This document shows positions 341-16,524 of a stretch of 16,524 nucleotides of DNA, in pieces. Position numbers and translations under genes: made by a program. The notes below the pieces were generated by a model. It was given only the letters and a program-made list of their open reading frames with translations, ran no database searches and was not told the DNA's origin. The stretch covers positions 1-16,524 of the forward strand of contig CALBHZ010000050.1 of the NCBI GenBank assembly GCA_937892815.1, in the 5' to 3' direction. This DNA comes from an uncultured archaeon. GTDB lineage: Archaea; Thermoproteota; Nitrososphaeria; Conexivisphaerales; CALBHZ01. Within the stretch, counting starts at the first letter, position 1, and each line of letters begins with the position of its first letter.

Positions 341-394
341 ATGGTTGTGAAGATTATAGGTATTAACGGATCTCCTAGAAAGACCACCTTATAA
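341..394 (+). pseudogene. N-terminal fragment of an NADPH-dependent FMN reductase-like protein
   Basis: The ATG at 341 follows a GGTGG ribosome-binding-like stretch (331-335). It opens a frame reading MVVKIIGINGSPRK before a TAA at 392-394. The hydrophobic beta strand followed by GSPRK is the usual start of NADPH-dependent FMN reductases and iron-sulfur flavoproteins, where this loop binds the FMN phosphate. Only about 14 recognisable residues remain. The sequence then passes into an ABC-ATPase remnant in another frame, so this looks like a gene start joined to a foreign decayed gene by a deletion, or an assembly chimera near the contig end. Confidence 0.55.
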
Positions 395-748: not shown

Positions 749-758
749 CCATGATAGT

Positions 759-1259: not shown

Positions 1260-1264
1260 TGTTA

Positions 1265-2563: not shown

Positions 2564-2581
2564 AAACTCTATACGTTCGCT

Positions 2582-2592
2582 ATTTTTAAATT
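2582..2592 (-). promoter_or_regulatory. TATA box for the methylthiotransferase unit
   Basis: Read on the minus strand the sequence is AATTTAAAAATA, an archaeal TATA element. Its centre lies about 25 nt before the ATG at 2563, which predicts transcription starting at or beside the start codon. It shares the 115-bp intergenic space with a divergent TATA box for the FtsZ-like gene. Confidence 0.6.
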
Positions 2593-2637
2593 ATGTCAAA
2601 AACAATTAATCACGAATAGGCATAGTTTTGATTAAGC

Positions 2638-2648
2638 ATTTTTAAATC
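2638..2648 (+). promoter_or_regulatory. TATA box for the FtsZ-like gene
   Basis: The sequence ATTTTTAAATC on the plus strand has its centre near 2643. That predicts transcription from about 2668-2672, giving a leader of only a few bases before the ATG at 2679. No Shine-Dalgarno sequence is visible there, in keeping with near-leaderless translation. Confidence 0.6.
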
Positions 2649-2678
2649 GAATATCTTACATATCTAGGCCTTGCAGGA

Positions 2679-3575
2679 ATGTTCAGCCAGCTCGATACCT
2701 TATTTATAGGCATAGGAACATCAGGTAAAAGAGCTTTAAAGGTGCTTAAAGAAGAAGAGTTACCCGGTAACTACCTACTTGTTTCGGATAAAAAAACCGA
2801 TGTAGAGAACGACATCTCCTTTTTAGAATTTAAGGGAGAAGCACAAACAATCACATATTCATCGGACCTCACCATAATCTTCACGTCTTTAACCGGCAAT
2901 ACCGGGCCTTACGTCGCTCCACATCTATGTTCAAACTTAAAGAGTAAGGGCTCATATGTTATCTCTGTCGCTTATCCACCTCTCCCCTTCTACAAAAATA
3001 AGTACTTTAAAGCCGCAAATACTTTAAGAAGGTTAAAGAGGACTTCTAATATAGTCTTCTTAGTTGATAACTTGTTCTATAAGGAGAAGTACGGAAATAT
3101 TCCTCTAAACGAGTTTTACTACAACGTTAACCTCGATCTTGCTAAGGCAATACGTTACATACTTTCGGATGAAAGCTCTTTAGACGATATTAAGGAGTTT
3201 AGAGGAGGGATAGGCTTAATCATAAGCACCAAAGAAGATAAGATCACGTCTTCCATCGCTAAGATCTTAACAAAGGCATATAGCCTAGCCATTACTATTG
3301 AGAGCTCTATATCTATAGTGTCCGGAAAGCGTCATCCCTCCTTAGATGAATTAGAGCGTATATACAGAGGTCTATCTATTTTCGAAGGAGGGCCTCCGAT
3401 TAGTATAAGAACGACGGAATTGAGCGCCGAAACAGATTTAACCCTTGTAGCTATTGGGAAGACCATCTTGGAAGAGTACGATCCAGTGGCTAAGATACTT
3501 GGAGATAGGGTACTGGATGATGAACCCGAAGTAAAGCTAAATATTGAACTCCCCAAGCTAATAAGGATAGATTAA
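2679..3575 (+). CDS. Divergent FtsZ/tubulin-superfamily protein
   Basis: The 298 residues follow the FtsZ GTPase fold in order. A glycine-rich T1-like loop, GIGTSGKRAL (11-20), is followed by a strand and a loop. SDLTIIFTSLTGNTGPYVAP (62-81) sits where FtsZ has the tubulin signature (GGGTGTG) followed by an AP helix. VISVAYPPLPF (94-104) matches the VAVVTKPF strand. RRLKRTSNIVFLVDN (117-131) matches the strand ending in the conserved PND. PLNEFYYNVNLDLAKAI (142-158) matches the helix that contacts the base. SLDDIKEF (167-174) lies where the T7 catalytic loop is expected. The signature keeps only T-G-N-T-G, and the N-terminal T2/T3 region is short, so nucleotide binding and polymerisation are uncertain. 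The protein ends soon after the C-terminal domain, with no long tail. Most Thermoproteota divide with CdvABC/ESCRT, so this is likely a specialised paralogue. CetZ and FtsZL-type families are alternatives. Confidence 0.75.
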   Translation: MFSQLDTLFIGIGTSGKRALKVLKEEELPGNYLLVSDKKTDVENDISFLEFKGEAQTITYSSDLTIIFTSLTGNTGPYVAPHLCSNLKSKGSYVISVAYPPLPFYKNKYFKAANTLRRLKRTSNIVFLVDNLFYKEKYGNIPLNEFYYNVNLDLAKAIRYILSDESSLDDIKEFRGGIGLIISTKEDKITSSIAKILTKAYSLAITIESSISIVSGKRHPSLDELERIYRGLSIFEGGPPISIRTTELSAETDLTLVAIGKTILEEYDPVAKILGDRVLDDEPEVKLNIELPKLIRID

Positions 3576-3898
3576 GTTACTTGTGTTCCCGGAGGAATTT
3601 CCTTATCTGGTTGAAGAATGGCTAGATTTTCGCCCGTGAAAGCGGCCAGAATCATTACTTCGGATTCAATGCCAAATATCTTCTTAGGTTGTAGATTAGT
3701 TACCACTATTACTAATTTCCCATTCAGATCCTCTGGATTGTAGAACTCGGCGATGCCCGCGACCGCTCTCTTGACCTCCCCTCCTATATCGATCTTCAGA
3801 TCTAATAGCTTCCTTGAGCCCTTAACCTTTTCAGCTGAAACGATCCTCCCCACCCTTATATCTAGCCTTTTAAATTCCTCGAAACTCACCCTTTCCAT
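3572..3898 (-). CDS. Stand-alone tRNA-binding OB-fold protein (MetG beta / Trbp111 type)
   Basis: The 108 residues form a single EMAP-II/Trbp111-like OB fold. FKRLDIRVGRIVSAEKV (9-25) gives the first strands, followed by LLDLKIDIGG, RAVAGIAEFYNPEDLNGK and VVTNLQPKKIFGIESEVMIL, then LQPDKEIPPGTQV at the C-terminus. This is the usual length of the separately encoded methionyl-tRNA synthetase beta subunit or C-terminal appendage found in archaea. It binds the outside corner of tRNA and raises synthetase affinity. The ATG at 3898 has a clear ribosome binding site, GGAGGGG, about 4 nt upstream. The gene overlaps the end of the FtsZ-like gene by 4 bp, tail to tail. The catalytic MetG is not in the window, so partnership with it is inferred from the family. 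Confidence 0.88.
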   Translation of the reverse strand: MERVSFEEFKRLDIRVGRIVSAEKVKGSRKLLDLKIDIGGEVKRAVAGIAEFYNPEDLNGKLVIVVTNLQPKKIFGIESEVMILAAFTGENLAILQPDKEIPPGTQVT

Positions 3899-3942
3899 AC
3901 TTATCCCCTCCTACTCTTCCCTTTTAAGTATAATCCGAAATC

Positions 3943-3953
3943 ATTTTTAAATA
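3943..3953 (+). promoter_or_regulatory. TATA box for the aIF2-beta operon
   Basis: ATTTTTAAATA has its centre about 25 nt before the ATG at 3974. Transcription is therefore predicted to begin at the start codon, and no Shine-Dalgarno sequence is present. This is the likely main promoter of the downstream information-processing block, whose inner genes do carry ribosome binding sites. Confidence 0.65.
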
Positions 3954-3973
3954 AGCTAATTAACTATCTGACG

Positions 3974-4384
3974 ATGAAGAGCTACAGAGAGCTACTAGAT
4001 AGGATAAAGGATAAACTACATCCAGAAGGAGTTGCTATGCAGTCCAGGTTGGCGATACCCGAGCCGGATGTAATATGGGTTGGAAATAGAACGATAGTTA
4101 GGAACTTCGGAAATATCGCCGAAGCCATTGGAAGAGATCCCCAAAAAGTACTAATCTTCCTCGCTCGAGAGCTTGCAACCGCCGCCTCTTTAGATGAAGA
4201 TAAGAGAGCCATCTTTATAGGAAGGAAAGATTTACAGTCGTTTAAAGTCCTTTTACAAAGATATGTTAAGGACTACGTCATCTGCCCGGTATGCAAAAGC
4301 CCAGACACTAAGCTAGAGAGACATAAAAGAGTCACCTTTTTGATATGTGAAGCTTGTGGAGCTAAATCCCCCGTAAGGGATTAG
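3974..4384 (+). CDS. eif2b: Translation initiation factor 2 subunit beta (aIF2-beta)
   Basis: This is the beta subunit of the heterotrimeric aIF2, which brings initiator Met-tRNA to the small ribosomal subunit. The 136-residue length is typical of archaea. The central alpha-beta domain contains VGNRTIVRNFGNIAEAIGRD (37-56) and the LARELATAA helix, as in the family. The C-terminal zinc ribbon has four cysteines as two CxxC pairs, CPVC and CEAC, about 20 residues apart. No eukaryotic lysine blocks are present, as expected. The ATG at 3974 sits at the predicted transcription start. The gene opens a collinear block and ends 2 nt before the DUF424 start. Confidence 0.96.
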   Translation: MKSYRELLDRIKDKLHPEGVAMQSRLAIPEPDVIWVGNRTIVRNFGNIAEAIGRDPQKVLIFLARELATAASLDEDKRAIFIGRKDLQSFKVLLQRYVKDYVICPVCKSPDTKLERHKRVTFLICEACGAKSPVRD

Positions 4385-4386
4385 CT

Positions 4387-4698
4387 TTGTCTAAAAAATT
4401 CATCGTTAGGCTGATATCCTATCAGAACACGAAGATAGTGAATATCTGTGATGAAGAGCTTTTAAACCGAAAGTTAAAGGAGGGTAACTTAGTCGTAGAC
4501 ATTAATGAGGAATATTTTTCCGGCTTTTTAGCAAGTGAAGAAGATGCGATTAGGCTCGTTAGGGAATCGGACATCGTAAACTTAGTAGGCAATAGGATCG
4601 TTGAAGCCGTATTAAAAGAAAAGCTAGCTCATCCTGGAGCAGTCAGAAAAATATCGAACATCTCTTTTCTCATGATCTACAAATTTAAATCGAAATAG
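4387..4698 (+). CDS. DUF424 family protein
   Basis: This 103-residue protein matches the archaeal DUF424 family: RLISYQNTKIVNICDEELL near the N-terminus, LVVDINEEYFSGFLASEEDA in the middle, then a run of hydrophobic and charged residues with ADIVNLVG-like spacing (SDIVNLVGNRIVEAVL) and a short basic C-terminus. The biochemical role is not established to my knowledge, but the family is archaeal and commonly lies beside translation factors, as here between aIF2-beta and aIF1A. The start is a TTG, two bases after the aIF2-beta stop, with AAGGGA a few bases upstream. It is a small soluble protein with no membrane segment or metal motif. Confidence 0.85.
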   Translation: MSKKFIVRLISYQNTKIVNICDEELLNRKLKEGNLVVDINEEYFSGFLASEEDAIRLVRESDIVNLVGNRIVEAVLKEKLAHPGAVRKISNISFLMIYKFKSK

Positions 4699-4743
4699 GT
4701 AAGTTTATTTTATAGGAGTTTAAAATATGTAGGGGGAGGTTTT

Positions 4744-5052
4744 ATGGGTAAGAGAAAGGTATTAAGTGAAGAGGAATTAAAGGAGCTGGTTTTACCTGGC
4801 CCAGGAGAGATGTTAGGTAGGGTGATTAAGCTCTTGGGAAGCGATCATATTTTAGTACAGTGTGTCGATGGTAAAACGAGGCTTGGGAGGATAAGGGGCA
4901 AGCTGAAGAGGAGGATTTGGGTTAGAGAAGGAGATGTGGTGCTAATAGCGCCTTGGGATTTTAAAGACGATAGATGCGACGTACTCTGGAGGTATACTAT
5001 TGCTCAAGTAGACTGGTTAAAGGAAAACGGATATCTTCCTAAGGAGCTATAA
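4744..5052 (+). CDS. eif1A: Translation initiation factor 1A (aIF1A)
   Basis: The 102-residue S1/OB-fold factor binds the ribosomal A site during initiation. It contains PGPGEMLGRVIKLLGSDHIL (18-37), VQCVDGKTRLGRIRGKLKRR (38-57, the basic RNA-binding surface), IWVREGDVVLIAPWDF and a C-terminal WLKENGYLP helix. These are the hallmarks of archaeal IF1A, and the length is normal. The ATG at 4744 is preceded by a strong ribosome binding site, GGGGGAGG. A 45-nt AT-rich gap separates it from DUF424, and TTTATTTTATAG in that gap could give an internal promoter. Confidence 0.96.
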   Translation: MGKRKVLSEEELKELVLPGPGEMLGRVIKLLGSDHILVQCVDGKTRLGRIRGKLKRRIWVREGDVVLIAPWDFKDDRCDVLWRYTIAQVDWLKENGYLPKEL

Positions 5053-5054
5053 AT

Positions 5055-5837
5055 TTGAACGTTTATGGAGAAGATAAAGCTCTGAAGAAGGTATACGAAA
5101 AGTTATTTAGATATGAAAAGGAATCGAGAATAAAAGTAAAGAGAAGTGAAGATTATGAAGTAGTTGAAGCTGTATTCGATAAACCAACTCTTATGACCCT
5201 CTACTCCATAATGAACGCCGGTATTTTCGATTATTTAAACGGCGTTGTAAGTACTGGGAAGGAAGCAAGGGTGTATTGGGGAGTTAAGGGAGATAAAGAT
5301 GTGGCAGTGAAGATATACTACACGGTGACTTCTTCGTTTAAAAATCGTATTATGTATATGATAGGCGATCCTCGTTTCGTTTCGTTTAAGAAGACGAGTA
5401 GGGGGTTAACGGAAGTTTGGGCTAAGAAGGAGTTTAAGAACTTAAAACAAGCGTACGATGCCGGCGTTAGAGTACCTAAGCCAATTTACGTGAAGAGTAA
5501 CGTGTTAGTTATGGAATTTATAGGAGAGAACGGCAGACCGGCTCCGCTTTTAGCGGAATCAATCGTATCTCAAAGGGATTATTACGAAATACTTGAAATG
5601 GTTAAGAAGCTATATAAGAAAGCTAACATAGTACACGCCGACCTCTCGGAATACAACATATTCAAGTATAGGGGGAAGCTGATACTGTTCGATTTCGGAT
5701 CTGGTGTCGACATTGCTCATCCAGAAGCGCTAGAATTTTTGATAAGAGATATAAATAATATCAATCGATTCTTCCTCAAACGTGGATTAAAGGTTAAGGA
5801 CGCCCGTCAAATACTTAGAGAGGTGGTAGGAGATTGA
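5055..5837 (+). CDS. rio1: RIO1-type serine/threonine kinase/ATPase
   Basis: RIO1 is an atypical kinase whose ATPase activity drives late small-subunit maturation. The 260 residues contain the P-loop STGKEARVYWG (66-76), the nucleotide-contacting Lys86 (VAVKIYY), the flexible loop with FKNRIMYMIGDPRF, the hinge VMEFIGENGRPAPLL, the catalytic Asp196 (HADLSEYNIF) and the metal-binding Asp213 (LFDFGSGV). The RIO1-specific HPEALEFLIRDINNINRFF helix follows. There is no N-terminal winged helix, which argues against RIO2. The TTG start at 5055 has AAGGAG 8 nt upstream, inside the end of aIF1A. The gene overlaps the KH-protein gene by 4 bp (TTGA), so translation is probably coupled. Its partner in the pathway, Dim2/Pno1, is encoded next. 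Confidence 0.95.
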   Translation: MNVYGEDKALKKVYEKLFRYEKESRIKVKRSEDYEVVEAVFDKPTLMTLYSIMNAGIFDYLNGVVSTGKEARVYWGVKGDKDVAVKIYYTVTSSFKNRIMYMIGDPRFVSFKKTSRGLTEVWAKKEFKNLKQAYDAGVRVPKPIYVKSNVLVMEFIGENGRPAPLLAESIVSQRDYYEILEMVKKLYKKANIVHADLSEYNIFKYRGKLILFDFGSGVDIAHPEALEFLIRDINNINRFFLKRGLKVKDARQILREVVGD

Positions 5838-6418
5838 GCTTTGAGGAATCTCTGAAGATCCCTCTAGATAGAGTAGGGGTATTAATAGGCAAGGGAGGGA
5901 AAGTAAAGAAGATGATAGAGGAGGAATGTAAGGTTTCACTCCAAATAGATAGTAAAAGCGGAGATGTAACCGTTAAAATGACGGGTTCAATAGAGGAAGC
6001 TAATCCATTTAAGGCCGTTGAAATAGTAAACGCTATAGGAAGAGGTTTTTCTCCTGAAAGGGCCTTTAGGTTATTGGAAGATGGACAAACGCTCTTAATT
6101 ATAGACCTAAGGGAGTACGTCGGTAAATCGAGGAACTCCTTAATTAGGATAAAGGGGAGAATTATAGGATTTAAAGGAAAGGCTAGAAGGGTGATCGAAG
6201 AGTTAACTGGAGCTTACATATCGGTCTATGGCCATACCGTCGCTATAATTGGAGATGTGGAACAGGTAAGACTGGCTGAAGAGGCCGTTAGATTGTTAGC
6301 GTCAGGAAGTAGCCATAAGACCGTTTATTCTATGTTACAAAGGGAGAGAACTAAGAAGAAGTTGGAAAGGTTAAAGCTATGGGAGGATACATCTCTTGAG
6401 GAAAAAGGTTATATTTGA
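5834..6418 (+). CDS. KH-domain ribosome maturation protein, Dim2/Pno1-like
   Basis: The 194-residue protein has two KH folds. KH1 starts at about 10 with VGVLIGKGGKVKKMIEE, where the GKGG loop binds RNA. KH2 starts at about 100 with IRIKGRIIGFKGKARRVIEE (GFKG loop) and ends with HTVAIIGDVEQVRLAEEAV. The closing SGSSHKTVYSMLQRERTKKK segment is typical of archaeal Dim2p. In the archaeo-eukaryotic pathway this protein binds the 3' end of small-subunit rRNA and works with RIO1 and Nob1. The TTG start overlaps the RIO1 stop, with a GGTGGTAGGAG ribosome binding site. The end overlaps the Top6B start by 23 bp. Confidence 0.93.
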   Translation: MSFEESLKIPLDRVGVLIGKGGKVKKMIEEECKVSLQIDSKSGDVTVKMTGSIEEANPFKAVEIVNAIGRGFSPERAFRLLEDGQTLLIIDLREYVGKSRNSLIRIKGRIIGFKGKARRVIEELTGAYISVYGHTVAIIGDVEQVRLAEEAVRLLASGSSHKTVYSMLQRERTKKKLERLKLWEDTSLEEKGYI

Positions 6419-7898
6419 AGAGATATCTCCTAGCGAGTTCTTCTATAGAAATAGAGATTTAGCCGGATTTACTAATCCGGCTAGAGCTCTCTATTCCTCT
6501 ATAAGGGAACTAGTAGAGAATAGCCTAGATGCATGTGATATAGCGAAGATCCACCCAAAAATCTACGTTAGGCTTTTGACCGCAAATGGTGAAGACGTTA
6601 CCGATAAGCCTCAGGAGTACATGATTACGGTAAGGGATAATGGAATCGGGATAGAAGGAGAAAGGATACCTTTTGCATTAGGAAAGGTGTTTTACGGTTC
6701 TAAATTCAAGCTTAGACAATCCAGAGGAATGTTCGGTATGGGGGGAACGATGAGTATACTTTACGGTCAAATAACGACTCACAAACCGGTAAAAATCGTG
6801 AGTTCGGTGGATGGGAGAATAAAATATACCTATGAGATCCTGATAGATATAGAGAAAAATCGCCCCATCATCTTGAACTTTAAGAGGGAGGATGCAAAGG
6901 GGTGGAGAGGAACGAGTATAACCCTATATTTGTTAGGAGATTACTATAGATCATCTGGAAAAATAATCGAGTACTTTAGAAAAACTGCCATAGTTACGCC
7001 ATACGCAGATATAGCCTTCATAGATCCGTACGGAAGGATACTTACGTTTAAGAAAGCAACAGATGAAATTCCAGAGCCTCCTAAAGAAGTAGACCCGCAT
7101 CCAAAAGGCGTAGATGTAGAGAGTTTGAGGAGGATGATAAGAGCATGGAAGGGAGGCAGTTTAGTTAAGTTCTTAGAAAGGAACTTTCATAGAGTAGGAA
7201 GGAAGACCGCTTTATCCTTTTTAGAGTATGCTGGCATAGATCCCTCAAAGGATCCTAGAGAGTTATCGAATGAAGAGATAGTACACCTATCTAAAGCTCT
7301 ACAGTCTTACGATGGCTTTCTACCTCCAGACGCCAAATGTCTCTCTCCCTTAGGAGAGAACATATTAACTACAGGGATAATTAAGGAGCTTAAACCTGAA
7401 TTTTACGCAATTGCTATTAGAGGACCTTCAGCGTATAGCGGTTTTCCGTTCATCGTTGAAATAGGGTTAGCTTATGGAGGAGGCGTGGAGAGGGGATTAA
7501 AGCTCTATAGATTTGCAAATCGCATTCCCTTATTGTACGATGAAGGCAGCGACGTCTCTTGGAAAATATTGAACGAAAGCATAGATTGGAAGCATTATAA
7601 GGTATCGCTAGACGATCCTCTTACGATTATCGTTCATATCTGTTCGACCAAAATTCCATACAAAACCGTAGGAAAGGAATACATAGCCGATAGGCCTGAA
7701 ATTGAAAGAGAAATAAGAAATGGCGTAAAGGAGGTCCTCAGGAAGCTATCGGCTTATCTTTCAAGGAAAGGAAGTATGGAAATGGCTAAAAGGAAGCTTA
7801 ATATCTACGCTAGATACTTGCCGTTAATAGCAAAATTCGCTACGGAGCTGGCTGGAAAGAGAAAGGAGCCCGATATATCCGTGCTATTAGGTGGTTGA
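6396..7898 (+). CDS. top6B: Type II DNA topoisomerase VI subunit B
   Basis: This is the ATPase subunit of topo VI, which passes one DNA duplex through another with subunit A. The 500 residues show the GHKL ATP site. The N-box is SIRELVENSLDACD (35-48) with the catalytic Glu, followed by VRDNGIGIEG, then the lid SRGMFGMGGTMS. That lid resembles the crenarchaeal RGMFG form, not the euryarchaeal GQQGIG form. The middle carries the helix-two-turn-helix region and the C-terminus the transducer domain. GKEYIADRPEIEREIRNGVK near 425 precedes the helical stalk towards subunit A. The TTG start at 6396 lies inside the end of the KH gene with GGGAGGAT upstream. It overlaps or abuts the subunit A start, so both subunits are made from one message. 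Confidence 0.96.
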   Translation: MRKKVIFEEISPSEFFYRNRDLAGFTNPARALYSSIRELVENSLDACDIAKIHPKIYVRLLTANGEDVTDKPQEYMITVRDNGIGIEGERIPFALGKVFYGSKFKLRQSRGMFGMGGTMSILYGQITTHKPVKIVSSVDGRIKYTYEILIDIEKNRPIILNFKREDAKGWRGTSITLYLLGDYYRSSGKIIEYFRKTAIVTPYADIAFIDPYGRILTFKKATDEIPEPPKEVDPHPKGVDVESLRRMIRAWKGGSLVKFLERNFHRVGRKTALSFLEYAGIDPSKDPRELSNEEIVHLSKALQSYDGFLPPDAKCLSPLGENILTTGIIKELKPEFYAIAIRGPSAYSGFPFIVEIGLAYGGGVERGLKLYRFANRIPLLYDEGSDVSWKILNESIDWKHYKVSLDDPLTIIVHICSTKIPYKTVGKEYIADRPEIEREIRNGVKEVLRKLSAYLSRKGSMEMAKRKLNIYARYLPLIAKFATELAGKRKEPDISVLLGG

Positions 7899-7899
7899 A

Positions 7900-8988
7900 A
7901 TGAAGAAGATGGGAGTAGCGGAAGAACGTAAAGCCGAAGTTTTGAGGAAGTTAAAGGAGCTAGGAGAATCCATATACTACGCGCTTCAAAATAGGAAATT
8001 TCCTGAAATCTATCTTCCGAGCAGATCGGTTAAGAACATAATGTACGATCAAGAGCTACGACAGTACGTATTAGGACCTGCGAAAGTACGTAGATCCTCT
8101 CATAATATAAAACAGATTAGGACTTTTACCCAATTAATCTGGCTCGCCTTCTTCGTTAAACGATTGATAAAGGAGAGGAAAACCTCTACACTAAGGGATA
8201 TCTTCTACTCCGCTCAAGCCTTTAATATCGATTTTAAAGATCAGGATGAGTCCGATAAGATAATTACCGATCTAGAATCCGCCTTAATGAAGGCTAGGGA
8301 AGACTTCAACGTCTTCCCAGAAGAAAGAAGCGCGATATTTGGAGAGCTAATAATCGAGTACACGGTACCTGGTTACGAGGGGAAGAGGTTAGATTTAACT
8401 TCGCATCCAGATGGAGTGATGATAGGTCCGGCGTTAACCACCGCTGAATTTATAGATACAAGTGCTGAAATGGTCATAGCTATAGAGAAGGGAGGTTTAT
8501 TTACGAGGTTTATTGAGGAAAAGGTGCATAAGAGGTTTAAAGCGATCTTGGTGAATACTGCAGGCCAGCCTCCTAGAAGCACGAGGTACCTTCTAAGAAG
8601 GCTAAATCAAGAATTAGGACTACCCGTGTACATATTTACGGATGCCGATCCTTGGGGAATGCACATAGCTATGGTTATTATATCCGGATCGGCCAACGCA
8701 GCTCACCTAAGGGATTTAACGACCCCAGATGCTAAGTGGGCCGGAGTTTGGGCGTCCGATATAAACAAGTACAGGCTTCCTCACGACAAGCTTACGGACA
8801 TAGATATTAAGAGATTACACGAGCTTAAAATGGATCCGAGGTATAACAGTAAGCTTTGGAGAGACGAAATTGAAATCTTCTTAAGACATAAGAAGAAGGC
8901 GGAACAGGAAGCCTTTGCAAGATACGGATTAACCTACATAGTGGACAAGTATCTTCCGGAGAAATTAGAAATAGTTAAAAGCCTATAG
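7900..8988 (+). CDS. top6A: Type II DNA topoisomerase VI subunit A (Spo11-like)
   Basis: This is the DNA-cleaving subunit and homologue of Spo11. The winged-helix (CAP) part contains STLRDIFYSAQAF, whose Tyr is the residue expected to form the 5'-phosphotyrosyl link. The Toprim domain has the acidic AIEKGGLFTRF glutamate and FTDADPWGMHIA, the Asp pair that binds Mg2+. I place the start at the ATG at 7900 because GGTGGT at 7890-7895 sits just upstream with good spacing. The in-frame GTG at 7891 would add three residues (365 in all) but has no ribosome binding site of its own. Length is slightly under the usual 370-390. Its position directly after Top6B is the common archaeal order. Confidence 0.96.
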   Translation: MKKMGVAEERKAEVLRKLKELGESIYYALQNRKFPEIYLPSRSVKNIMYDQELRQYVLGPAKVRRSSHNIKQIRTFTQLIWLAFFVKRLIKERKTSTLRDIFYSAQAFNIDFKDQDESDKIITDLESALMKAREDFNVFPEERSAIFGELIIEYTVPGYEGKRLDLTSHPDGVMIGPALTTAEFIDTSAEMVIAIEKGGLFTRFIEEKVHKRFKAILVNTAGQPPRSTRYLLRRLNQELGLPVYIFTDADPWGMHIAMVIISGSANAAHLRDLTTPDAKWAGVWASDINKYRLPHDKLTDIDIKRLHELKMDPRYNSKLWRDEIEIFLRHKKKAEQEAFARYGLTYIVDKYLPEKLEIVKSL

Positions 8989-9003
8989 TGAAGAACGTAA
9001 AAT

Positions 9004-9198
9004 ATGCCTAGTCGCCCGATCGTCCTCTTAATTAAAATAGCTTCGATCGCTACAGTTATCTTAGGTGCCTTAATGTTGTATCTCGTTAATACTGCAAACC
9101 CTCCTATGCATCCAGTGATATCCGGCTCCCTTAATATATTCTCCACTCTCTTAATAGTTGTAGGTCTGTTTGTATTAATAGCTAGAATAAGAGACTAA
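9004..9198 (+). CDS. Small two-helix membrane protein
   Basis: This is a 64-residue frame starting at an ATG 15 nt after the Top6A stop, with an in-frame TAA just upstream so no longer version is possible. Two hydrophobic stretches (about 6-27 and 39-60) are separated by a short polar turn with proline, NPPMHPV. Arg/Lys residues lie at both ends (SRP, RIRD), which suggests both termini are cytosolic. I do not recognise a family. The ribosome binding site is weak, so translation is not certain, but the composition is what a real mini membrane protein would show. It could be read through from the topoisomerase operon. Confidence 0.55.
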   Translation: MPSRPIVLLIKIASIATVILGALMLYLVNTANPPMHPVISGSLNIFSTLLIVVGLFVLIARIRD

Positions 9199-9206
9199 CC
9201 GTCATG

Positions 9207-9214
9207 TTTATATG
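9207..9214 (+). promoter_or_regulatory. TATA box of the tRNA-Asn gene
   Basis: TTTATATG lies about 30 nt before the first base of the tRNA (9240), at the usual archaeal spacing for transcription starting a few bases upstream of the tRNA 5' end. Confidence 0.6.
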
Positions 9215-9270
9215 AGAGTTCTTATCAAAGAAAAAACGCGCCGCCGTAGCTCAGCGTGGTAGAGCAGCTG

Positions 9271-9290
9271 ACCTCTAGAGGAGGGCTGAA
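9271..9290 (+). other. tRNA-Asn intron 1 (position 30/31, 20 nt)
   Basis: A bulge-helix-bulge motif can be drawn. The central 4-bp helix is CAGC (9265-9268) with GCTG (9285-9288), flanked by 3-nt bulges TGA (9269-9271) and AAG (9289-9291). The intron hairpin CCTC/GAGG (9272-9275 with 9281-9284) closes a 5-nt loop. Cuts after the second base of each bulge give the stated ends. Position 30/31 is non-canonical but is known in Thermoproteota. Confidence 0.85.
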
Positions 9291-9297
9291 GCTGTTA

Positions 9298-9309
9298 ATC
9301 CACGCAGAG
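9298..9309 (+). other. tRNA-Asn intron 2 (canonical 37/38, 12 nt)
   Basis: The central helix CTGT (9292-9295) pairs with GCAG (9304-9307), with bulges TAA (9296-9298) and AGA (9308-9310) and a 5-nt loop TCCAC with no further intron stem. The outer helix is the mature anticodon stem GCTGG/CCAGT, which exists only once intron 1 is removed. Splicing is therefore probably ordered. Confidence 0.85.
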
Positions 9310-9417
9310 ACCAGTTGGTCGCCCGTTCGAGTCGGGCCGGCGGCGCCACTACTTTCCCAAAGCGTTTTTATAGAGAGTTTTTAAGTCTAGCATTTTTAAT
9401 ATGTTGGAGCGGAAAAA

Positions 9418-11229
9418 ATGAAAGGATGGACTGGCTTAGCGCTTAGGGTAGATTTAACTAGGAGGAAGTACCTAGCGACTAAAATCGATCCACATTACCT
9501 AAGGGAATTCCTAGGAGGTAGAGGGTTAGCGATTAGGTTCCTATGGGAAGAACTCCCAATGAACACAGATCCTTTATCTCCCAAAAACATGTTAATATTC
9601 TCTGCAGGGCCTCTTACCGGCTTGCCTTTACCGAGTAGCGGCAAGCTAGTAGTCGCTTCGAAAAGCCCGTTGACGAACGGCTACGGTGATGGCAATTTGG
9701 GAAGCAACGCAGCTGTAGCTTTAAGGAAAGCGGGCTACGATGTATTGATAATTACTGGTAAAGCCGAAAAGCCCGTTTACCTACTAATTGATAACGGTAA
9801 AGTGGAGTTTAAGAGCGCCGACGATTTATGGGGGCTTTCAACTTTTGAAGTAGAGGAAAGGCTTAAGATGGAGAATGGAAATAGCGTAGGGATCCTTACT
9901 ATAGGTCCAGCTGGTGAGAACTTAGTTAAGTTCTCAACCATTACCTCTCAAAGAGGAAGGTCTGGAGGTAGGCCTGGAATGGGCGCCGTTATGGGATCTA
10001 AGAACTTGAAAGCTATAGTTATAAGGGGAACGAAGCCGATTCAAGTGTACGATAGTAATGAATTAAGGAGGTTGGCGGAGAAATGCTACTCTAAGATACA
10101 GAGAAGTGATAACTATTCCTTTTGGATAAGACAAGGGACAATGTCCACTATAGAATGGGCAAATAAAAACTCCGTGCTTCCCACTTATAACTTCAAAGAA
10201 GGGATTTTTGAGAGAGAAGAGGAGATAAATGGATATGCTATGGAGAGGATAAAAGTGGATAGAAGAGGTTGTCCTTATTGTACGATGGAATGTGGAAACG
10301 TAGTACGCGATTTAGAGGAAAGGGAAAGCGAGCTAGATTATGAAAACGTGGCCATGTTAGGCTCAAATATAGGAATTGGAGATTTAAAGGAGGTTTCAAC
10401 TTTAAATAGGTATGCGGATGAGTATGGCCTCGATACCATATCTTTAGGCAACGTAATAGGCTTCGCTATAGAGGCGTCTAGTAGAGGGCTTTTAAATGAA
10501 AAGATAGAATGGGGAGATTACAAGGCGATACTACAGCTCGTAAAGGACATCGCTAAAAGGGAGGGGATCGGCGACCTCTTAGCTGAAGGGGTAAAGAGAG
10601 CATCGGAGAGGATAGGCGGCAAGGACTTCGCTATGCATGTAAAGGGCCTTGAAGTCTCAGCTTACGATTGTCATACCGCTATAGGGATGGCGTTAGCTTA
10701 TGGAACTTCTCCTATAGGGGCTCATCACAAGGATGCGTGGATTATAGGATGGGAGCTGAGTAAGGATAGATTCGGTGTAAGTAGGGAAAAAGTTGAGAAA
10801 ATCGTAGAGCTGCAGAGAATAAGAGGGGGATTTTTCGAATCCCTAACCGTTTGTAGATTTCCTTGGATAGAACTGAACATCGAGCTAGAATGGTATCTCA
10901 GGTTCTTAAGAGCCTCAACTGGAATAAGCTTCGATATGTCTGGAGTCTACAGGATTTCAGATAGGATTTATACGTTGATAAGGGCGTTCTGGATAAGGGA
11001 ATTTGGACGGTGGAGGAGAGAGATGGACTACCCCCCAATTAGGTGGTTTAAGGAGCCCTTAAACAAAGGCCCGTTTAAGGGAGCTAAGCTCGATCTAAAC
11101 TCGTACGATATTCTATTGGATTACTATTATGAGTTGAGAGGGTGGAATAGAAACGGTATACCCAAAGAGGAAACCTTGGAAAAGCTCAATCTTTCATACG
11201 CTAAGGCTATATTGGATCGATCGCGCTAA
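9418..11229 (+). CDS. Aldehyde ferredoxin oxidoreductase-family tungstopterin enzyme
   Basis: The AOR family oxidises aldehydes to acids with ferredoxin as acceptor, using a tungsten-bis-pterin and one [4Fe-4S] cluster. The 603 residues match the family from end to end. The N-terminal domain carries FLGGRGLAIRFLWEE, SAGPLTGLPLPSSGKLVVAS and KAGYDVLIITGKAEKPVYL. Cluster ligands are Cys285, Cys288, Cys292 (GCPYCTMEC) and Cys479 (SLTVCRF), matching the spacing of the Pyrococcus enzyme (288/291/295/494). The pterin motif is DEYGLDTISLGN (334-345). At 416-421 the usual YDPRG-like motif reads YDCHTA, followed by SPIGAHHKDAW, so this is a distinct subgroup with unknown substrate. The ATG at 9418 has GGAG about 9 nt upstream. 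No pterin-synthesis or ferredoxin gene is adjacent. Confidence 0.94.
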   Translation: MKGWTGLALRVDLTRRKYLATKIDPHYLREFLGGRGLAIRFLWEELPMNTDPLSPKNMLIFSAGPLTGLPLPSSGKLVVASKSPLTNGYGDGNLGSNAAVALRKAGYDVLIITGKAEKPVYLLIDNGKVEFKSADDLWGLSTFEVEERLKMENGNSVGILTIGPAGENLVKFSTITSQRGRSGGRPGMGAVMGSKNLKAIVIRGTKPIQVYDSNELRRLAEKCYSKIQRSDNYSFWIRQGTMSTIEWANKNSVLPTYNFKEGIFEREEEINGYAMERIKVDRRGCPYCTMECGNVVRDLEERESELDYENVAMLGSNIGIGDLKEVSTLNRYADEYGLDTISLGNVIGFAIEASSRGLLNEKIEWGDYKAILQLVKDIAKREGIGDLLAEGVKRASERIGGKDFAMHVKGLEVSAYDCHTAIGMALAYGTSPIGAHHKDAWIIGWELSKDRFGVSREKVEKIVELQRIRGGFFESLTVCRFPWIELNIELEWYLRFLRASTGISFDMSGVYRISDRIYTLIRAFWIREFGRWRREMDYPPIRWFKEPLNKGPFKGAKLDLNSYDILLDYYYELRGWNRNGIPKEETLEKLNLSYAKAILDRSR

Positions 11230-11309
11230 AGCACATTTAGCTCTATTAAGTTATAGCTTTAGGAAAGGGCCACTATAGCAAAATAAAGCGGGCTTCTCCA
11301 TAGTCCTTT

Positions 11310-11779
11310 CTAAAGGAAGCTAATCACCTCTTCGATAAGCCTTCTCTTCGTAGGTTGAACTTTCATAGCGGGGTATTCTGGAGCGAGTGCGCCAACTAGC
11401 TTCATTTCCTTCGGTACCCCTAATAGCTCGTTGTATTCTTTTTCCATCATTAAAGGCACCCCAAGCCATACGGATCCATCCCCCTTAGCCCATGCCGCCA
11501 ATATCATGTTCTCCGTAGCTAGACAGACGCTTTGGAAGGCCAACATTAGCCCTATATCTCTCTACAGCTATCAACTAAAGTTCTTCTCCTCACTCTTTAC
11601 TACGTAAAAAACCGTTATTCTCCAGCACTTGTGGTAGGAGATCTTATTCTAGCCCATATTATTTCTCTTATTACTTCATCTGGAATTGGATCCGGCTTAA
11701 GACTCCTACGCTGCATTTCGTTCCAATTACCCCTTTCCACGATATCGTATACGTCGGCCTCTATAATCTTCTTTAAATT
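11310..11779 (-). pseudogene. Decayed nitroreductase-family flavoprotein
   Basis: On the minus strand the N-terminal part (from about 11779) reads ADVYDIVERGNW, then SLKPDPIPDEVIREIIWARI and SPTTSAGE before a TAA at 11615-11617. These match the RRSVRxFxPDPIPDE and WAPSAGN segments of FMN nitroreductases, but the RRS segment is altered and no start codon is seen. A different frame continues VFYVVKSEEKNF and hits TGA at 11571-11573. A third segment gives DIGLM and then LAFQSVCLATENMILAAWAK, GSVWLGVPL and a plausible C-terminus to 11310. A large part between the second and third segments is missing. The 78-residue C-terminal frame (11310-11546) is open but is only the tail of the family. Confidence 0.88.
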
Positions 11780-11818
11780 TCAAAACGTTAAAGTTTTACT
11801 CTAATAAAGCTTAGATAG

Positions 11819-12970
11819 CTAACCTATCCTCCACATACAAGCAATAAAGATGGTAGACAAAATGGGGATTAAAGCTATTATAAATCCGAAACCGCCCAGT
11901 ATTATCACTTCTCCTCCAGTGCCAAATATATCTAAGAATAAGCCAATTACGTAAGGAGATATCATACCCCCTATGCTAGAAGCCATGTTAGATATCCCTA
12001 ACAGCTCGCTTATATCTCCTCCGACCTTAGCCGCCATCCCCCTAACAATAGGAAGGAGCCCTCTATAGGTAGTAGCTAAAATAGAGCCAGCGATCACTAG
12101 AAGGACCTGCGGCACTCTAAAAATCAAGATGGTGCATGCTATCGCTAAAATAGAATTTCCAGCAATTATTATCTTACGCTCTCCATACTTATCCGCAAGC
12201 TTTCCTAAAAGCAGCCCTAAAACGGTACCTAGTATGTACGCGTAAAATAATAGAGTAGTTACTTCAGTTTTCCCTAGAAGAAACGCCTCCTTCAAATATA
12301 TTATAAATACCTCGCCCAGCCCGCCTAATACGTATCCAATTGAAAAGGCGGATATGAAAACTAAGGCGGTAGCAGAAAAGACCGCCTTACCTTCCTTCTC
12401 GGTAACTTTTTTTGGTTCTAAATAGGGATATTTCGAAAACGGAATAATGGGAATGATGGATAGCAAGTAGAATAGTGCAGATAGCAGGATAGCTTGTTGA
12501 TAACTAGGATTTAACATCGTGTATATGCCGTTTCCTATTCCCCTCCCTATTCCTCCTCCGAAGAAGTATATACCCAAAATCGTCGACCTCTTATTTAGAG
12601 CGGTTTTCTTGCTAACGGCGCTCTGTAACGTAGGCCATGTTAATCCAGCCAATAGCCCATGAACCAGCCTCAATGCTATGACTAGCCATATGCTATATGC
12701 GAAAATAAGGAACGACATCGTGAGAGAACTCAATATTAAACAAGTAACGCTTAACTTCTCCAACTTCTTCAATTTTATCTTACCGGAGATAAAGGAACCA
12801 ATTGTTCTGCCTAGCATAAAGCCCGTCATTATCAACCCTACATCAGCTCCTGTCGACATGAGGGTATACCTAGAGAAATACGCTATTGCGGGCTTAGAGA
12901 TCTCAAGGCCGATAGCGGCCAGAAACGGGGATAGGATAATCGCGTAAAAATGAGCGTTCTCTCTTTGCAA
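11819..12970 (-). CDS. Major facilitator superfamily (MFS) transporter
   Basis: This is a 383-residue integral membrane protein with roughly 10-12 hydrophobic segments in two halves, joined by a charged stretch near 188-195 (EPKKVTEKEGK). The loop in the second half, LLGKLADKYGERKIIIAGN, is a good MFS motif A (GxLADKxGxRK). The equivalent loop in the first half, GSFISGKIKLKKLEKL, is degenerate. Conserved small-residue helices such as LVHGLLAGLTWPTLQSAVSK fit the drug/sugar-efflux type, but the substrate cannot be inferred. The start is a TTG at 12970; a TATA box about 30 nt upstream supports it as nearly leaderless. Neighbours give no functional hint. Confidence 0.88.
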   Translation of the reverse strand: MQRENAHFYAIILSPFLAAIGLEISKPAIAYFSRYTLMSTGADVGLIMTGFMLGRTIGSFISGKIKLKKLEKLSVTCLILSSLTMSFLIFAYSIWLVIALRLVHGLLAGLTWPTLQSAVSKKTALNKRSTILGIYFFGGGIGRGIGNGIYTMLNPSYQQAILLSALFYLLSIIPIIPFSKYPYLEPKKVTEKEGKAVFSATALVFISAFSIGYVLGGLGEVFIIYLKEAFLLGKTEVTTLLFYAYILGTVLGLLLGKLADKYGERKIIIAGNSILAIACTILIFRVPQVLLVIAGSILATTYRGLLPIVRGMAAKVGGDISELLGISNMASSIGGMISPYVIGLFLDIFGTGGEVIILGGFGFIIALIPILSTIFIACMWRIG

Positions 12971-12999
12971 ATTAGGTCGAATAGCTAGCGTCTAAATCT

Positions 13000-13008
13000 C
13001 TATATATC
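13000..13008 (-). promoter_or_regulatory. TATA box for the MFS transporter gene
   Basis: On the minus strand this reads GATATATAG. The predicted transcription start, about 25 nt downstream, is near 12977, only a few bases before the TTG start at 12970, where no Shine-Dalgarno sequence is seen. Confidence 0.5.
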
Positions 13009-13019
13009 CCTTTTTCGCC

Positions 13020-15752
13020 TTACCTGCTAGTACTTATAGCGTATTTACCTCTTCCTAAGTTTTCGTATAATGAAGTAATTAACTCATCTTCAGATACCCT
13101 TAGAGACCATAGCCATGCTTCAAGCTGCCTGTCTACCGGTATTACATCAATTCCTGCATCGTGTAATATTTTTACTTCGTCCTTAGATCTTTCGTAGTTC
13201 CACCTAGGTATTATAAACCTCTTGACCCTTATTCTCCTCGTTCTCACGGCCGCTATTATCTTGCCAGATCCTCTCCACCCCAGTCCTCCAACTGGTCCCA
13301 CGTTTCCCTTAATATCGGCCTTACCGGTCATCACTACATCTAATTCAACGGGTATTCCTGAGAGCTCCGATATAGCGGCTACGCTAAAGGTAACTCCCAA
13401 GCTAGGACCGCTAACTCCTAGACCAGGCACGCCCTCCAATGGGCTTATAACTTGGAACTTGAAATCAAAGTTAGATATATCAATTCCCGTTTTCTCCCTT
13501 ATATATCCTCTAACGTACTCAGTTGCATTTATCGCGCTCTCCAATACGCTAGTGTCTTCAACGGGCATTGCTCCAGTTACTGCGGTTTTTGCAGCGCCTG
13601 TTACTACCACTTTACCGGAACCCCTAGGATTTATAGAACACTCAACTAAGAGAGGCATACCCTTCCTTCCTTGGATATCCGTAGCTAACCCAATTGCAGC
13701 ACCCGTTCCTCTCGTTTTGTATATAATGCTTTCTTGAGCATCCATCATTTCCCTGTCTATCTCGCTCTCTAACGCTTCCGATGCCTTTTCGAAGTGATAG
13801 AGTCTTATTTTATACGTACTAGGCTTTATCGTCTTCAAAGTTTCAGGATCTGTCGATTTTAACACTTCCTCTAATCTCTTTAAATCGTCTTTGTACAACC
13901 TCTTCAGTTCTCTTATTCTTATTTCGTCTCCGCTCTCATAAGCCTTAGATAGCTCCATGGCCGCGACGACTTCTTCAGACCTTAGCCTATTAGCCTCCCT
14001 AATTATCTCAGCAACTACTCTAGGAGATACAGCCCTAAATCTCTTAATCACTTTAAGGACGTTTTCAGGGGTAGCTTCAGGATGCAGATGTGGTAAGTAA
14101 TGTCTTAAATGTACCCTAATTATGTCTAGTCTTTCTTCATCATTTCTAGGTAAAGGTATCTCAATAATGTAGGGTTCAAATCTATTCAGAACGGCTTCAT
14201 CTATCGCTTCGAGTCTATTAGTTGCTGCGATAACGATTACGTTCTCCAGAGGTTGTAAACCATCTAGCTCCGTTAGAATTTGCGCCGTTAGCCTATCGCT
14301 TACCGGATCTCCTTTCCTCTTCCCGGCGATAACGTCGAATTCATCGAAGAATATTATGCTCGGAGCATGCCTCCTAGCTAAGGAGAATAAGTCCCTAATG
14401 TTCTTTTCAGGCTCTCCTACCCATTTAGCGTTTATTAGTAACTGAGCTGCTGGAACGTAGAAGAAGGTAGCGTCATTTTCCTTAGCTATAGCCTTCGATA
14501 GGTATGTCTTTCCACAACCTGGCTCTCCCCACAATAGGAAGCCCTTAGGAGGTACCCAGTTTAGCTTGCTAGCGAGCTCTGGCTTTAAGCTCAAAGAGAT
14601 GATTTTAAATAGCTTTTCCTTTATACCGAAGAGACCTCCTACATCGCTATATCCAACAGCGGGCTTTATCTTAAGAACAGTGCTCATTACCTCGGTGCTC
14701 TTCTCTTGTTCAACGTAGCCTCTAAGCTCTCTAGCTACCAACTTAAAGTCGTCAAGTGTAACTCTATACTTTAGGCTTCCTTTCTTCCTGATAATTCCTC
14801 TAAATAAGCTACTGCGTAAAGGCTCTACTTTATGCTGGTAAACCCTCTGACACGCATCTATAATATCAAATGGGCTTAGCTGTGTTTGTCTAAAGGCGCT
14901 TACGGATCTTTCTAAGATCTTAAGCACTTCATTAGCATCTAAATGTTCCCATCCATATTTCTTAAGTTCCGCTTTCAATACAGCTAGTAGAATATCTCGC
15001 GTTAGGTTTTGATCGAGGTCTATGATATATGCTCTCCTTCTAATGTCCTCTCTAATACTTTCAAATTTATTAGTTGCCGCGATAACTACCGTTCTTTCAT
15101 CCGTATTTTGTATCCTGTTTATATTGTCTATAAAGGCATCCTGTACTCTAATGTCCTCTCTATCCGCTCCATGTTCTGGACGAGCAACTCTAAAGCCTAT
15201 GGTCTGGAACTCGTCGAAGAATACTATGCTCGGAGTCTCCTTAGCTCTGTTGAATATACTCGATATGTTCCTGATGCTCTGACCATAATATGGATGGAAG
15301 ACGTCTTCTCCTCTTACTACGATGGGCTGTACATTTACCCCTTTTTCCAATCCATATTTAATAGCCTCTCTTATACAAACTTCCGCTAATAAGGTCTTAC
15401 CGGTTCCCGTAGATCCCTTTAATATGAAGAACTTAGGAGGAGGCATTCCTTGTAAGATGTTCCTTACGGTAGGATCTCTTATTACGTGGTATGCTATAGA
15501 CGAGATTATGAGCTCGAACTCCTTTTCCCTGCCTATAAGATCTTCCTTGCTCCTAGGGAACTTCTTTTCAAGCTCCATTAACCTCTTCTTTATCTTTCGA
15601 GGGTTAAGCCTAGCGTTCCTCCACCTCCTGTAGTTACGGTTAACCAAGTAAAGAGGGAGGCTTAGCAGTTTACGAAGCCTTGGATGCTTAATCCACCAAG
15701 GCTTCTCTCCTCCCCAAGTGTACTCTTCATCACTGCTCATCGATAAGCTCAT
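13020..15752 (-). CDS. Tandem AAA+ (CDC48-like) ATPase fused to a C-terminal Lon-type protease domain
   Basis: The 910 residues fall into four parts. Residues 1-65 are basic and aromatic (WWIKHPRLRKLL, RNYRRWRNARLNPRK). AAA-1 has Walker A GSTGTGKT (113-120), an aromatic pore loop (HPYYGQ), Walker B IVFFDEF (176-182), sensor AATN and Arg residues 238-240. AAA-2 is CDC48-like: Walker A GEPGCGKT (409-416), pore loop KWVGE, Walker B IIFFDEFD (465-472), IVIAATNR and Arg524. The Lon domain (about 680-880) has catalytic Ser784 in GPSLG and Lys831 in GSGKIIAA. The serine-lysine gap is 47, against the usual 43. There is no membrane helix, unlike archaeal LonB, which also has only one AAA module. The start ATG at 15752 has GGAGGGG upstream. 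The gene overlaps its upstream partner by 23 bp. Likely role: ATP-driven unfolding and degradation near the membrane. Confidence 0.93.
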   Translation of the reverse strand: MSLSMSSDEEYTWGGEKPWWIKHPRLRKLLSLPLYLVNRNYRRWRNARLNPRKIKKRLMELEKKFPRSKEDLIGREKEFELIISSIAYHVIRDPTVRNILQGMPPPKFFILKGSTGTGKTLLAEVCIREAIKYGLEKGVNVQPIVVRGEDVFHPYYGQSIRNISSIFNRAKETPSIVFFDEFQTIGFRVARPEHGADREDIRVQDAFIDNINRIQNTDERTVVIAATNKFESIREDIRRRAYIIDLDQNLTRDILLAVLKAELKKYGWEHLDANEVLKILERSVSAFRQTQLSPFDIIDACQRVYQHKVEPLRSSLFRGIIRKKGSLKYRVTLDDFKLVARELRGYVEQEKSTEVMSTVLKIKPAVGYSDVGGLFGIKEKLFKIISLSLKPELASKLNWVPPKGFLLWGEPGCGKTYLSKAIAKENDATFFYVPAAQLLINAKWVGEPEKNIRDLFSLARRHAPSIIFFDEFDVIAGKRKGDPVSDRLTAQILTELDGLQPLENVIVIAATNRLEAIDEAVLNRFEPYIIEIPLPRNDEERLDIIRVHLRHYLPHLHPEATPENVLKVIKRFRAVSPRVVAEIIREANRLRSEEVVAAMELSKAYESGDEIRIRELKRLYKDDLKRLEEVLKSTDPETLKTIKPSTYKIRLYHFEKASEALESEIDREMMDAQESIIYKTRGTGAAIGLATDIQGRKGMPLLVECSINPRGSGKVVVTGAAKTAVTGAMPVEDTSVLESAINATEYVRGYIREKTGIDISNFDFKFQVISPLEGVPGLGVSGPSLGVTFSVAAISELSGIPVELDVVMTGKADIKGNVGPVGGLGWRGSGKIIAAVRTRRIRVKRFIIPRWNYERSKDEVKILHDAGIDVIPVDRQLEAWLWSLRVSEDELITSLYENLGRGKYAISTSR

Positions 15753-16521
15753 ACCATCCCCTCCACTTTCCTATGGCGTAGATTACAGTTAGGATTGAGA
15801 AGAGAATCGAAGCAAGCATTAGATCTGTCAAGGTTATTAACGCCTCAATTCCTAACAATCGAGCTAGTACTATAGAGATAAAGGATCCAATTAAGATGAA
15901 TACTAAGATCAAAGAGGAGGCGTAAAAGGCATACCTTAGAAGCAAGGAGAAGGTGTCCATTTTTCCCCACCTCTTAAACTTCTTTTTATAATCCTTAACA
16001 TCTAAATATCCCGTGATAAGGAAAAGGGGAAATAATGTGGAGTAGATAACGTATTCCCAAGTAGGCAAGCTTGGGGATACGATATTTAGTAAGCCAAGGC
16101 TTAACGGCTTAACCTCTAACGTCCTCAAGATATTAAGCTCTAATTGAGCTGAGATATTGCCAGGTACTACATAAGAGGCTATGAGGGAAGCAATGCCTTC
16201 TTTAACTACAAATACGTTTAGCTCAATAGGTTTATTTGATAAGAAAATCAATGTATATAAAATAGCTTTGTTAGTAGTATTTTTGAGATGAATTTCTATT
16301 CCCCCTTTACTTCCATGCTCATCACTAACACTTTCTATAAATGCTTTAATGCTCTCTATCTTAGAATATGAAACAACGACGGCTCCCTCGCTCTCATATC
16401 TTACTACGATGTAGTCATTTGGGTTTGTAAGATGAATTTTGGGAACTTTAATTACCACACCTTCAGAAGCATATACCGTAGAAGAGGTAACGAAGACGAA
16501 CACCATTAGTAGGACGGGCAA
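15730..16521 (-). CDS. Membrane protein with exported domain and three C-terminal helices (probably 5'-truncated)
   Basis: The frame is open to the window edge. The first TTG (16521) falls inside what looks like the hydrophobic core of a signal peptide (PVLLMVFVFVTSSTVYA, cleavage after VYA), so the true start is probably outside. An outer domain of about 135 residues follows, beta-rich by sequence, with two N-glycosylation sequons (NTT at 81-83, NIS at 122-124). Three membrane helices lie at about 155-174, 196-220 and 228-250. The loop YKKKFKRWGK (178-187) is basic, so it is cytosolic. The helix count then puts the tail KWRGWYELIDEQ in the cytosol, facing the AAA-Lon protease encoded next. 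The family is not recognised. The 23-bp overlap implies coupled translation and a functional link. Confidence 0.8.
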   Translation of the reverse strand: MPVLLMVFVFVTSSTVYASEGVVIKVPKIHLTNPNDYIVVRYESEGAVVVSYSKIESIKAFIESVSDEHGSKGGIEIHLKNTTNKAILYTLIFLSNKPIELNVFVVKEGIASLIASYVVPGNISAQLELNILRTLEVKPLSLGLLNIVSPSLPTWEYVIYSTLFPLFLITGYLDVKDYKKKFKRWGKMDTFSLLLRYAFYASSLILVFILIGSFISIVLARLLGIEALITLTDLMLASILFSILTVIYAIGKWRGWYELIDEQ

Positions 16522-16524
16522 CCA

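Follow-up and report, generated by a model that had tools for sequence, protein, structure and literature searches.

Do a soluble ATP-dependent protease and the membrane protein encoded directly upstream of it work as one membrane-bound machine? This question is raised by two overlapping genes at the end of a 16,524-nt stretch of DNA from an uncultured archaeon of the Conexivisphaerales (Thermoproteota; assembly GCA_937892815.1, contig CALBHZ010000050.1, positions 1 to 16,524), referred to here as the window. One of them encodes a protein in which a Lon protease domain is combined with two AAA+ modules (tandem-AAA Lon), the other its putative membrane partner. According to our proposal, the two genes probably encode a single membrane-anchored AAA+ protease, a counterpart of FtsH or of the euryarchaeal LonB. 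The case is carried by the domains and intact motifs of the enzyme, by the adjacency and exact co-occurrence of the two genes in the genomes sampled, and by a natural fusion.

The protease gene and its putative membrane partner

The two genes have the following features (positions in the window; (-), minus strand):

13020..15752 (-): tandem-AAA+ Lon protease gene, 910 amino acids, ATG start; alternative in-frame ATG at 15740
15585..15704 (-): conserved Trp-rich basic N-terminal segment, residues 17-56 (PWW..P.LR..L..PLY....YRRWR), from alignments; follows the anchor in fused proteins
15018..15431 (-): AAA+ module 1, approximately residues 108-245; Walker A 113-120, Walker B 176-181 (Pfam, motifs, alignment)
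14169..14537 (-): AAA+ module 2, residues 406-528; Walker A 409-416, Walker B 466-471; pore-loop-like KWVGEPE (Pfam, motifs, alignment)
13134..13718 (-): Lon (S16) protease domain, residues 679-873 (Pfam Lon_C; PDB Lon matches)
13401..13403 (-): codon of catalytic Ser784 in GVSGPSLG (alignments, PDB Lon alignment)
13260..13262 (-): codon of catalytic Lys831 in GGLGWRGSGKI (alignments, PDB Lon alignment)
15730..16524 (-): putative membrane-anchor partner gene; 264 of its codons lie in the window, and about four more at the 5' end are cut off by the contig boundary
16123..16467 (-): predicted exported all-beta domain, partner residues 20-134 (window frame)
15979..16062 (-): partner helix 1 (155-182), predicted transmembrane (TM), followed by the basic loop KDYKKKFKRW (AlphaFold model, hydropathy)
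15853..15963 (-): partner helix 2 (188-224), containing TM2 (AlphaFold model, hydropathy)
15760..15831 (-): partner helix 3 (232-255), TM3, running into the predicted cytosolic tail WRGWYELIDEQ (AlphaFold model, hydropathy)
15730..15752 (-): overlap of the partner and Lon genes, 23 bp; the Lon frame is the partner frame + 1
15758..15764 (-): Shine-Dalgarno-like GGAGGGG inside the Trp-Arg-Gly codons of the partner, 5 nt before the Lon ATG

Pfam AAA matches the Lon protein in two stretches (E 2.3e-57), and both modules carry intact Walker A and B motifs (GSTGTGKT at 113 and IVFFDE at 176; GEPGCGKT at 409 and IIFFDE at 466). Because both motor sites are intact, the doubled unfolding power attributed to this enzyme in the initial annotation appears plausible. 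The protease domain at residues 679-873 passes the curated cut-off of Pfam Lon_C (54.3 bits against 21.1, E 1.7e-14). In PDB entry 1z0e, part of the 1z0 series that we take to be LonB of A. fulgidus, the residues aligned with its Ser784 and Lys831 are the Ser of GDSAS and the Lys of QKIEAA. The Ser784-Lys831 dyad is invariant in 24 aligned relatives and also among the 10 loci compared, and so is Pro783, which precedes the catalytic Ser. In the window protein, 46 residues separate Ser784 from Lys831. The Ser-Lys offset is 47 in 35 of 38 loci, and among 119 proteins it is 47 in 67 and 49 in 43, as read with a motif that required the Pro before the Ser and left 3 of the 38 loci and 9 of the 119 proteins unread. 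We found no TM segment in the protein, the best 19-residue hydropathy being 1.36 and falling within the protease domain. Open reading frame, Pfam, motifs and hydropathy all agree with the initial description of a soluble 910-residue protein combining two AAA+ modules with a Lon Ser-Lys protease domain. The gene is the single Lon_C match in its genome, a metagenome-assembled genome (MAG) of 86.7% completeness, which also has a proteasome gene.

The partner frame is open at the end of the contig, which is identical with the window; its relatives P0122 and P0123 begin with MQ(G/E)KWL, so that about four N-terminal codons are missing from the window. No Pfam or NCBIfam family matches the protein at E<=0.01. 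Its AlphaFold model (mean pLDDT 77.6) comprises a signal-like N-terminal helix (2-13), ten strands between residues 22 and 134, and three further helices (155-182, 188-224 and 232-255). Helices 2 and 3 are strongly hydrophobic (2.67 and 2.13). Helix 1 is only weakly so in the window (best 19-residue mean 1.40), a caveat on a reading with three TM helices, and reaches at least 1.6 in 15 of the 18 aligned partners of the main form described below. We infer a topology in which the beta domain lies outside, followed by three membrane helices, with the tail WRGWYELIDEQ inside the cell beside the enzyme. The neighbouring gene, initially read as encoding an exported domain, three helices and a cytosolic tail, is thus predicted much as before. 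Structure searches with the partner models returned generic sandwiches only.

Co-occurrence, adjacency and natural fusion

Genome counts given here stem from drawn samples, many of the genomes being MAGs. In a sample of 300 Thermoproteota genomes, the enzyme family (called at E<=1e-100) was found in 37, of which 18, the window's included, carry the main form and 19 a second form. The other 17 main-form enzymes are 61-73% identical to that of the window, those of the second form 37-43%; a C-terminal fragment (L150) was excluded from the main-form set. A profile of the main-form partner (A2, E<=1e-5) matches every one of the 18 main-form genomes and finds nothing in the remaining 282. The partner gene immediately precedes the enzyme gene in each of the 18 loci and overlaps it. 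Partner and enzyme are also the only gene clusters common to these loci, the next one occurring in six.

The second form comes with a partner family of its own, whose profile (A3) matches exactly the 19 second-form genomes among the 300. By sequence clustering, this partner stands beside the enzyme in 18 of 18 loci, and for the nineteenth genome (G063) adjacency was read from coordinates across an assembly gap. In eight loci of one genus (g20) the partner gene is on the opposite strand, in divergent orientation, with adjacency kept. The model of a second-form partner (locus L130, mean pLDDT 76.0) shows a helix, strands, two C-terminal helices and almost no tail. At this locus (genome G225, C1:112969-114547) we observed two tandem copies of the second-form partner (A3 1.4e-84 and 2.5e-62), which suggests a duplication of the anchor.

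A further search covered 240 genomes of one class, 39 of them with the enzyme. It added one main-form locus (L156), with partner, and ten second-form genomes, of which seven had loci; the partner was present in all seven, and the three genomes without a locus were left out. The same search gave a third enzyme form (family f68) in 19 genomes. Here, a membrane protein with two C-terminal hydrophobic segments is encoded directly upstream in 15 of 15 loci (L170 judged by eye), and 13 of these proteins have an N-terminal hydrophobic segment too (12 by script, L170 by eye); the N-terminal segments are unseen in L167, where the contig ends within the partner, and in L158, which has masked bases. Left out of this count were G536, G570 and G580, whose loci lack the enzyme N-terminus, and G598, which gave no locus. 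A wider search for related loci in genome contigs returned 80 distant ones, mostly matches to the AAA region (best-segment identity 28-45%), none of them clearly a family member.

Adjacency and co-occurrence in other Thermoproteota, on which the initial annotation had staked its reading, were found in 18 of 18 main-form genomes, with no case in which the two genes were not neighbours. The pair as first described holds for the main form; the description proved too narrow, as there are two more enzyme forms with partners of their own and, in Asgard archaea, a fused form.

Of the 120 enzyme matches listed, nine are extended at the N-terminus by a stretch similar to the partner profile (E 1.8e-23 to 2.6e-9). 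Full-length among them are P0045, P0046, P0053, P0062, P0063, P0066 and P0068, while P0073 and P0074 are partial. All but P0066 and P0068 come with Odin-, Hod- or Promethearchaeota names. The extension aligns from partner-profile positions 156-182 to 272, i.e. with the membrane helices and tail only, and hhalign relates the seven full-length fusions to the main partner with a probability of 99% (E 3.6e-18). Five of these seven have three hydrophobic segments in the extension, P0068 has four and the shorter P0046 two; three segments would leave the end of the extension in the cytosol, together with the enzyme. A quick tree of 76 rows with midpoint root unites the full-length fusions in a single clade (SH-aLRT 100), next to a group with split genes to which P0041 belongs. 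Among 195 genomes of the phylum holding a Lokiarchaeota-named genome, two have the enzyme, both with the fused extension.

Since at least one lineage has anchor and enzyme joined in a single chain, the tail of the partner would be placed at the Trp-rich N-terminus of the enzyme. Fusion and exact co-occurrence would imply, as far as sequence can tell, a stable physical association of the enzyme with a TM subunit, and we regard pairing plus fusion as strong evidence for a membrane-anchored complex. The initial idea that membrane attachment was moved to a separate subunit is in line with a partner that is always adjacent (18 of 18 genomes) and is fused to the enzyme in Odin- and Hodarchaeia.

The exported domain is less constant than the membrane part. 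It was found behind a signal-like segment in 16 of 18 main-form loci; in the other two, L122 and L126, the partner frame has only 124-134 residues, mostly membrane helices, and no exported domain. The Asgard fusions lack this domain as well and keep the membrane part. From the sequences, the constant part of the partner appears to be the membrane anchor plus tail. A core function in sensing or delivering substrates from outside, as initially suggested, is therefore not supported, given these two genomes and the fusions, and outside sensing would be at most an added function.

Mechanism and competing explanations

In the proposed mechanism, the Lon protein, with its tandem AAA+ motors and Lon Ser-Lys chamber, would reside in the cytosol as a hexamer, by homology. 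The partner would serve as anchor, its membrane helices and cytosolic tail (..YELIDE) docking at the Trp-rich N-terminus near the first motor. A membrane or membrane-proximal substrate would enter at the N-terminal, partner side, be pulled by motor 1 (YYG, pore-loop-like) and then by motor 2 (KWVG) in two stacked rings, and finally be cut in the Lon chamber. The exported beta domain may tune substrate access or outside interactions, being dispensable in some lineages. We infer each of these steps, from hexamer and stoichiometry through docking site and threading direction to activity on membrane-protein substrates. Such a layout probably serves to clear damaged membrane proteins. Our claim is that the system works like FtsH, not that it is identical with FtsH or LonB.

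Several points weigh against a membrane-anchored protease of this kind. Activity, complex formation and membrane localisation are deduced from gene and protein sequences. The co-occurrence counts are phylogenetically non-independent, main and second forms being spread over six families each. Within the order to which the window belongs, 19 further genomes lack the enzyme, and neither a tandem-AAA Lon nor a LonB-like match came up in 230 of the 300 genomes, so that the enzyme is not indispensable; its presence in the window genome may reflect transfer, or loss elsewhere. The mutual exclusion of tandem-AAA Lon (37 of 300 genomes) and LonB-like matches (33 of 300, with three to four candidates scored per genome in the results listed) could be lineage history. 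The modelled second-form partner, with its beta domain outside, would contact the enzyme via a basic loop and not via a tail. Profile comparison of the second with the main partner gave an hhalign probability of 12%, that of the third with the main partner 79% (E 1.7e-5) and with the second 1%; a common family for all three is not supported. Either a common origin of the three partner families is no longer visible, or the anchors were recruited from different sources.

Would the partner be a dedicated regulator, inhibitor or substrate, e.g. a stress sensor degraded on signal, rather than chiefly an anchor? The exported domain behind a signal-like segment in most main-form loci would fit, as would the weak Foldseek similarity of the second-form partner model to chagasin-type cysteine-protease inhibitors (three chains, prob 0.91-0.94, E 0.010-0.020, amid many other sandwiches). 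Such beta-sandwich matches are generic, however; L122, L126 and the fusions retain the membrane part and not the exported domain, and a substrate or inhibitor fused to every protease subunit would be odd. We consider this role unlikely. Far less credible still is a soluble enzyme whose operon happens to include an unrelated membrane protein: the lack of a TM helix in the Lon protein speaks for it, but exact co-occurrence (18/18 and 19/19 of the 300 genomes), an adjacency that survives gene inversion and the fusion in Asgard archaea all argue against it. The two Cdc48-like motors (225.6 bits to CDC48 over residues 61-661), one more than in the Lon subfamilies defined in PMC9569914, might also suggest a complex that unfolds or dislocates proteins in membrane or surface-layer assembly, with a Lon domain that processes rather than degrades. 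Against this speaks the Ser-Lys dyad, which is invariant in the 24 aligned members and 10 loci, as in degradative Lon enzymes, and we rate such a function as very improbable.

The overlap of the two genes (15730-15752), given as 23 bp in the initial annotation as well, raises the question if partner and enzyme could be joined by a programmed frameshift into a single polypeptide in the window lineage, as in the Asgard fusions. In line with this idea, all 18 main-form loci have the Lon gene in the +1 frame of the partner; taken to the longest open reading frame, the overlaps span 14-53 nt. One ancestral split would, however, explain the constant phase, and no slippery run was seen by eye at the overlap. 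Furthermore, the Trp-Arg-Gly codons in the last-helix region of the partner read GGAGGGG in 14 of the 18 loci (close variants in the other four), with a Lon-frame ATG or TTG at a constant short distance behind this site in 15 and an ATG at a fixed spot further downstream in all 18. Fused proteins, for which an internal start is superfluous, carry (K/R)H(L/I/S) in place of WRG. These features point to coupled translation from an internal ribosome-binding site rather than a frameshift, for which we see little prospect.

Elsewhere in the window, the six-frame view shows gene remains across different frames with stops at about 11310-11780 (-), which look like a decayed pseudogene, presumably nitroreductase-like. 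At 6396-8988 (+) lie two genes that we take to resemble those of topoisomerase VI subunits B and A; with the listed GTG start, they share 8 bp.

Relation to known AAA+ proteases

The initial annotation had asked whether genomes with the pair also hold a standard LonB. NCBIfam LonB (TIGR00764) was above its cut-off in none of the 300 Thermoproteota genomes, at most four candidates having been scored per genome in the results listed; within the same limit, the LonB-like matches at E<=1e-30 (33 genomes) include none among the 37 with tandem-AAA Lon. In families f5, f27, f37 and f41 (e.g. G142:C79 and G271:C1), LonB-like frames of mostly 735-793 amino acids score 337-371 bits, below the LonB cut-off, and another group of 801-844 amino acids scores 131-166 bits to LonB. 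Many Thermoproteota also have Lon_C in open frames of about 190-340 or 550-725 amino acids, which are not tandem-AAA and possibly belong to the family of secreted archaeal serine proteases.

The window enzyme shares with LonB that it would be a membrane-held archaeal ATP-dependent protease with a Ser-Lys dyad, and the best PDB matches of its protease domain are the 1z0 series. As described in PMC9569914, the single AAA module of archaeal LonB contains an inserted membrane domain and an Asp precedes the catalytic Ser; LonA has a Pro there, and in both Ser and Lys are exactly 42 residues apart. Unlike LonB, the window enzyme has two AAA+ modules, no membrane insert, Pro instead of Asp and a spacing four residues longer (46, which differs from LonA as well); its putative anchor is encoded by a gene of its own or fused to the enzyme N-terminus. 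Its score against TIGR00764 is 60.6 bits, failing the cut-off of 516.6. The Pro before the Ser, an A-type centre, is shared with LonA and LonBA (PMC9569914). LonA, however, is soluble, with a coiled-coil N-region and a single AAA+ module, and the window protein fails TIGR00763 (68.4 bits against 608.05). LonBA, according to PMC9569914, has one AAA module, is presumed membrane-bound with an insertion domain at the N-terminus and is so far restricted to firmicutes, whereas the window enzyme is archaeal with two modules. By its sequence, the window enzyme thus appears to have an A-type centre and yet to fall outside the LonA and LonB definitions. In the open-access literature, judged by titles and abstract openings, we found no description of a tandem-AAA Lon or of this pair, nor of relatives characterised as free soluble enzymes, the finding that the initial annotation had named as a possible refutation.

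Proteasome and LonB are given as the sole ATP-dependent proteases of archaea, with FtsH absent, in PMC4343526; we made no genome search of our own for FtsH. With LonB above cut-off in 0 of 300 genomes, removal of membrane proteins in Thermoproteota is a question for which the pair offers a concrete candidate in some of them. It combines motor, protease and anchor in a layout outside the Lon subfamily definitions of PMC9569914, and the natural fusion predicts an interface. Whether several Thermoproteota lineages and part of the Asgard archaea possess a third membrane-integrated AAA+ protease architecture, besides those of FtsH and LonB, is in our view evenly balanced: a Cdc48-like double motor would be hard-wired to a Lon chamber and tied to the membrane by an exchangeable anchor, which comes from three partner families and is either separate or fused. 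If true, it would do in one complex, where LonB is undetected, what eukaryotes do with Cdc48 extraction plus the proteasome.

With CDC48, p97 and VAT the window enzyme shares the tandem AAA modules, and its best whole-protein PDB matches, with E down to 7e-78, come from VCP-like ATPases and from Cdc48/p97. It differs by the added protease domain, and its 225.6 bits to TIGR01243 over residues 61-661 fail the cut-off of 802.65. FtsH has an external domain, a membrane anchor, a cytosolic motor and a protease behind the motor. The window system would resemble bacterial and organellar FtsH (m- and i-AAA) in each of these elements. It differs from FtsH in having two motor modules, an anchor that is a separate polypeptide in the Thermoproteota loci, and no M41 domain (none among 19 Pfam families matching the Lon protein at E<=0.01); the best stretch against the FtsH profile TIGR01241 covers only positions 154-347 of 598.

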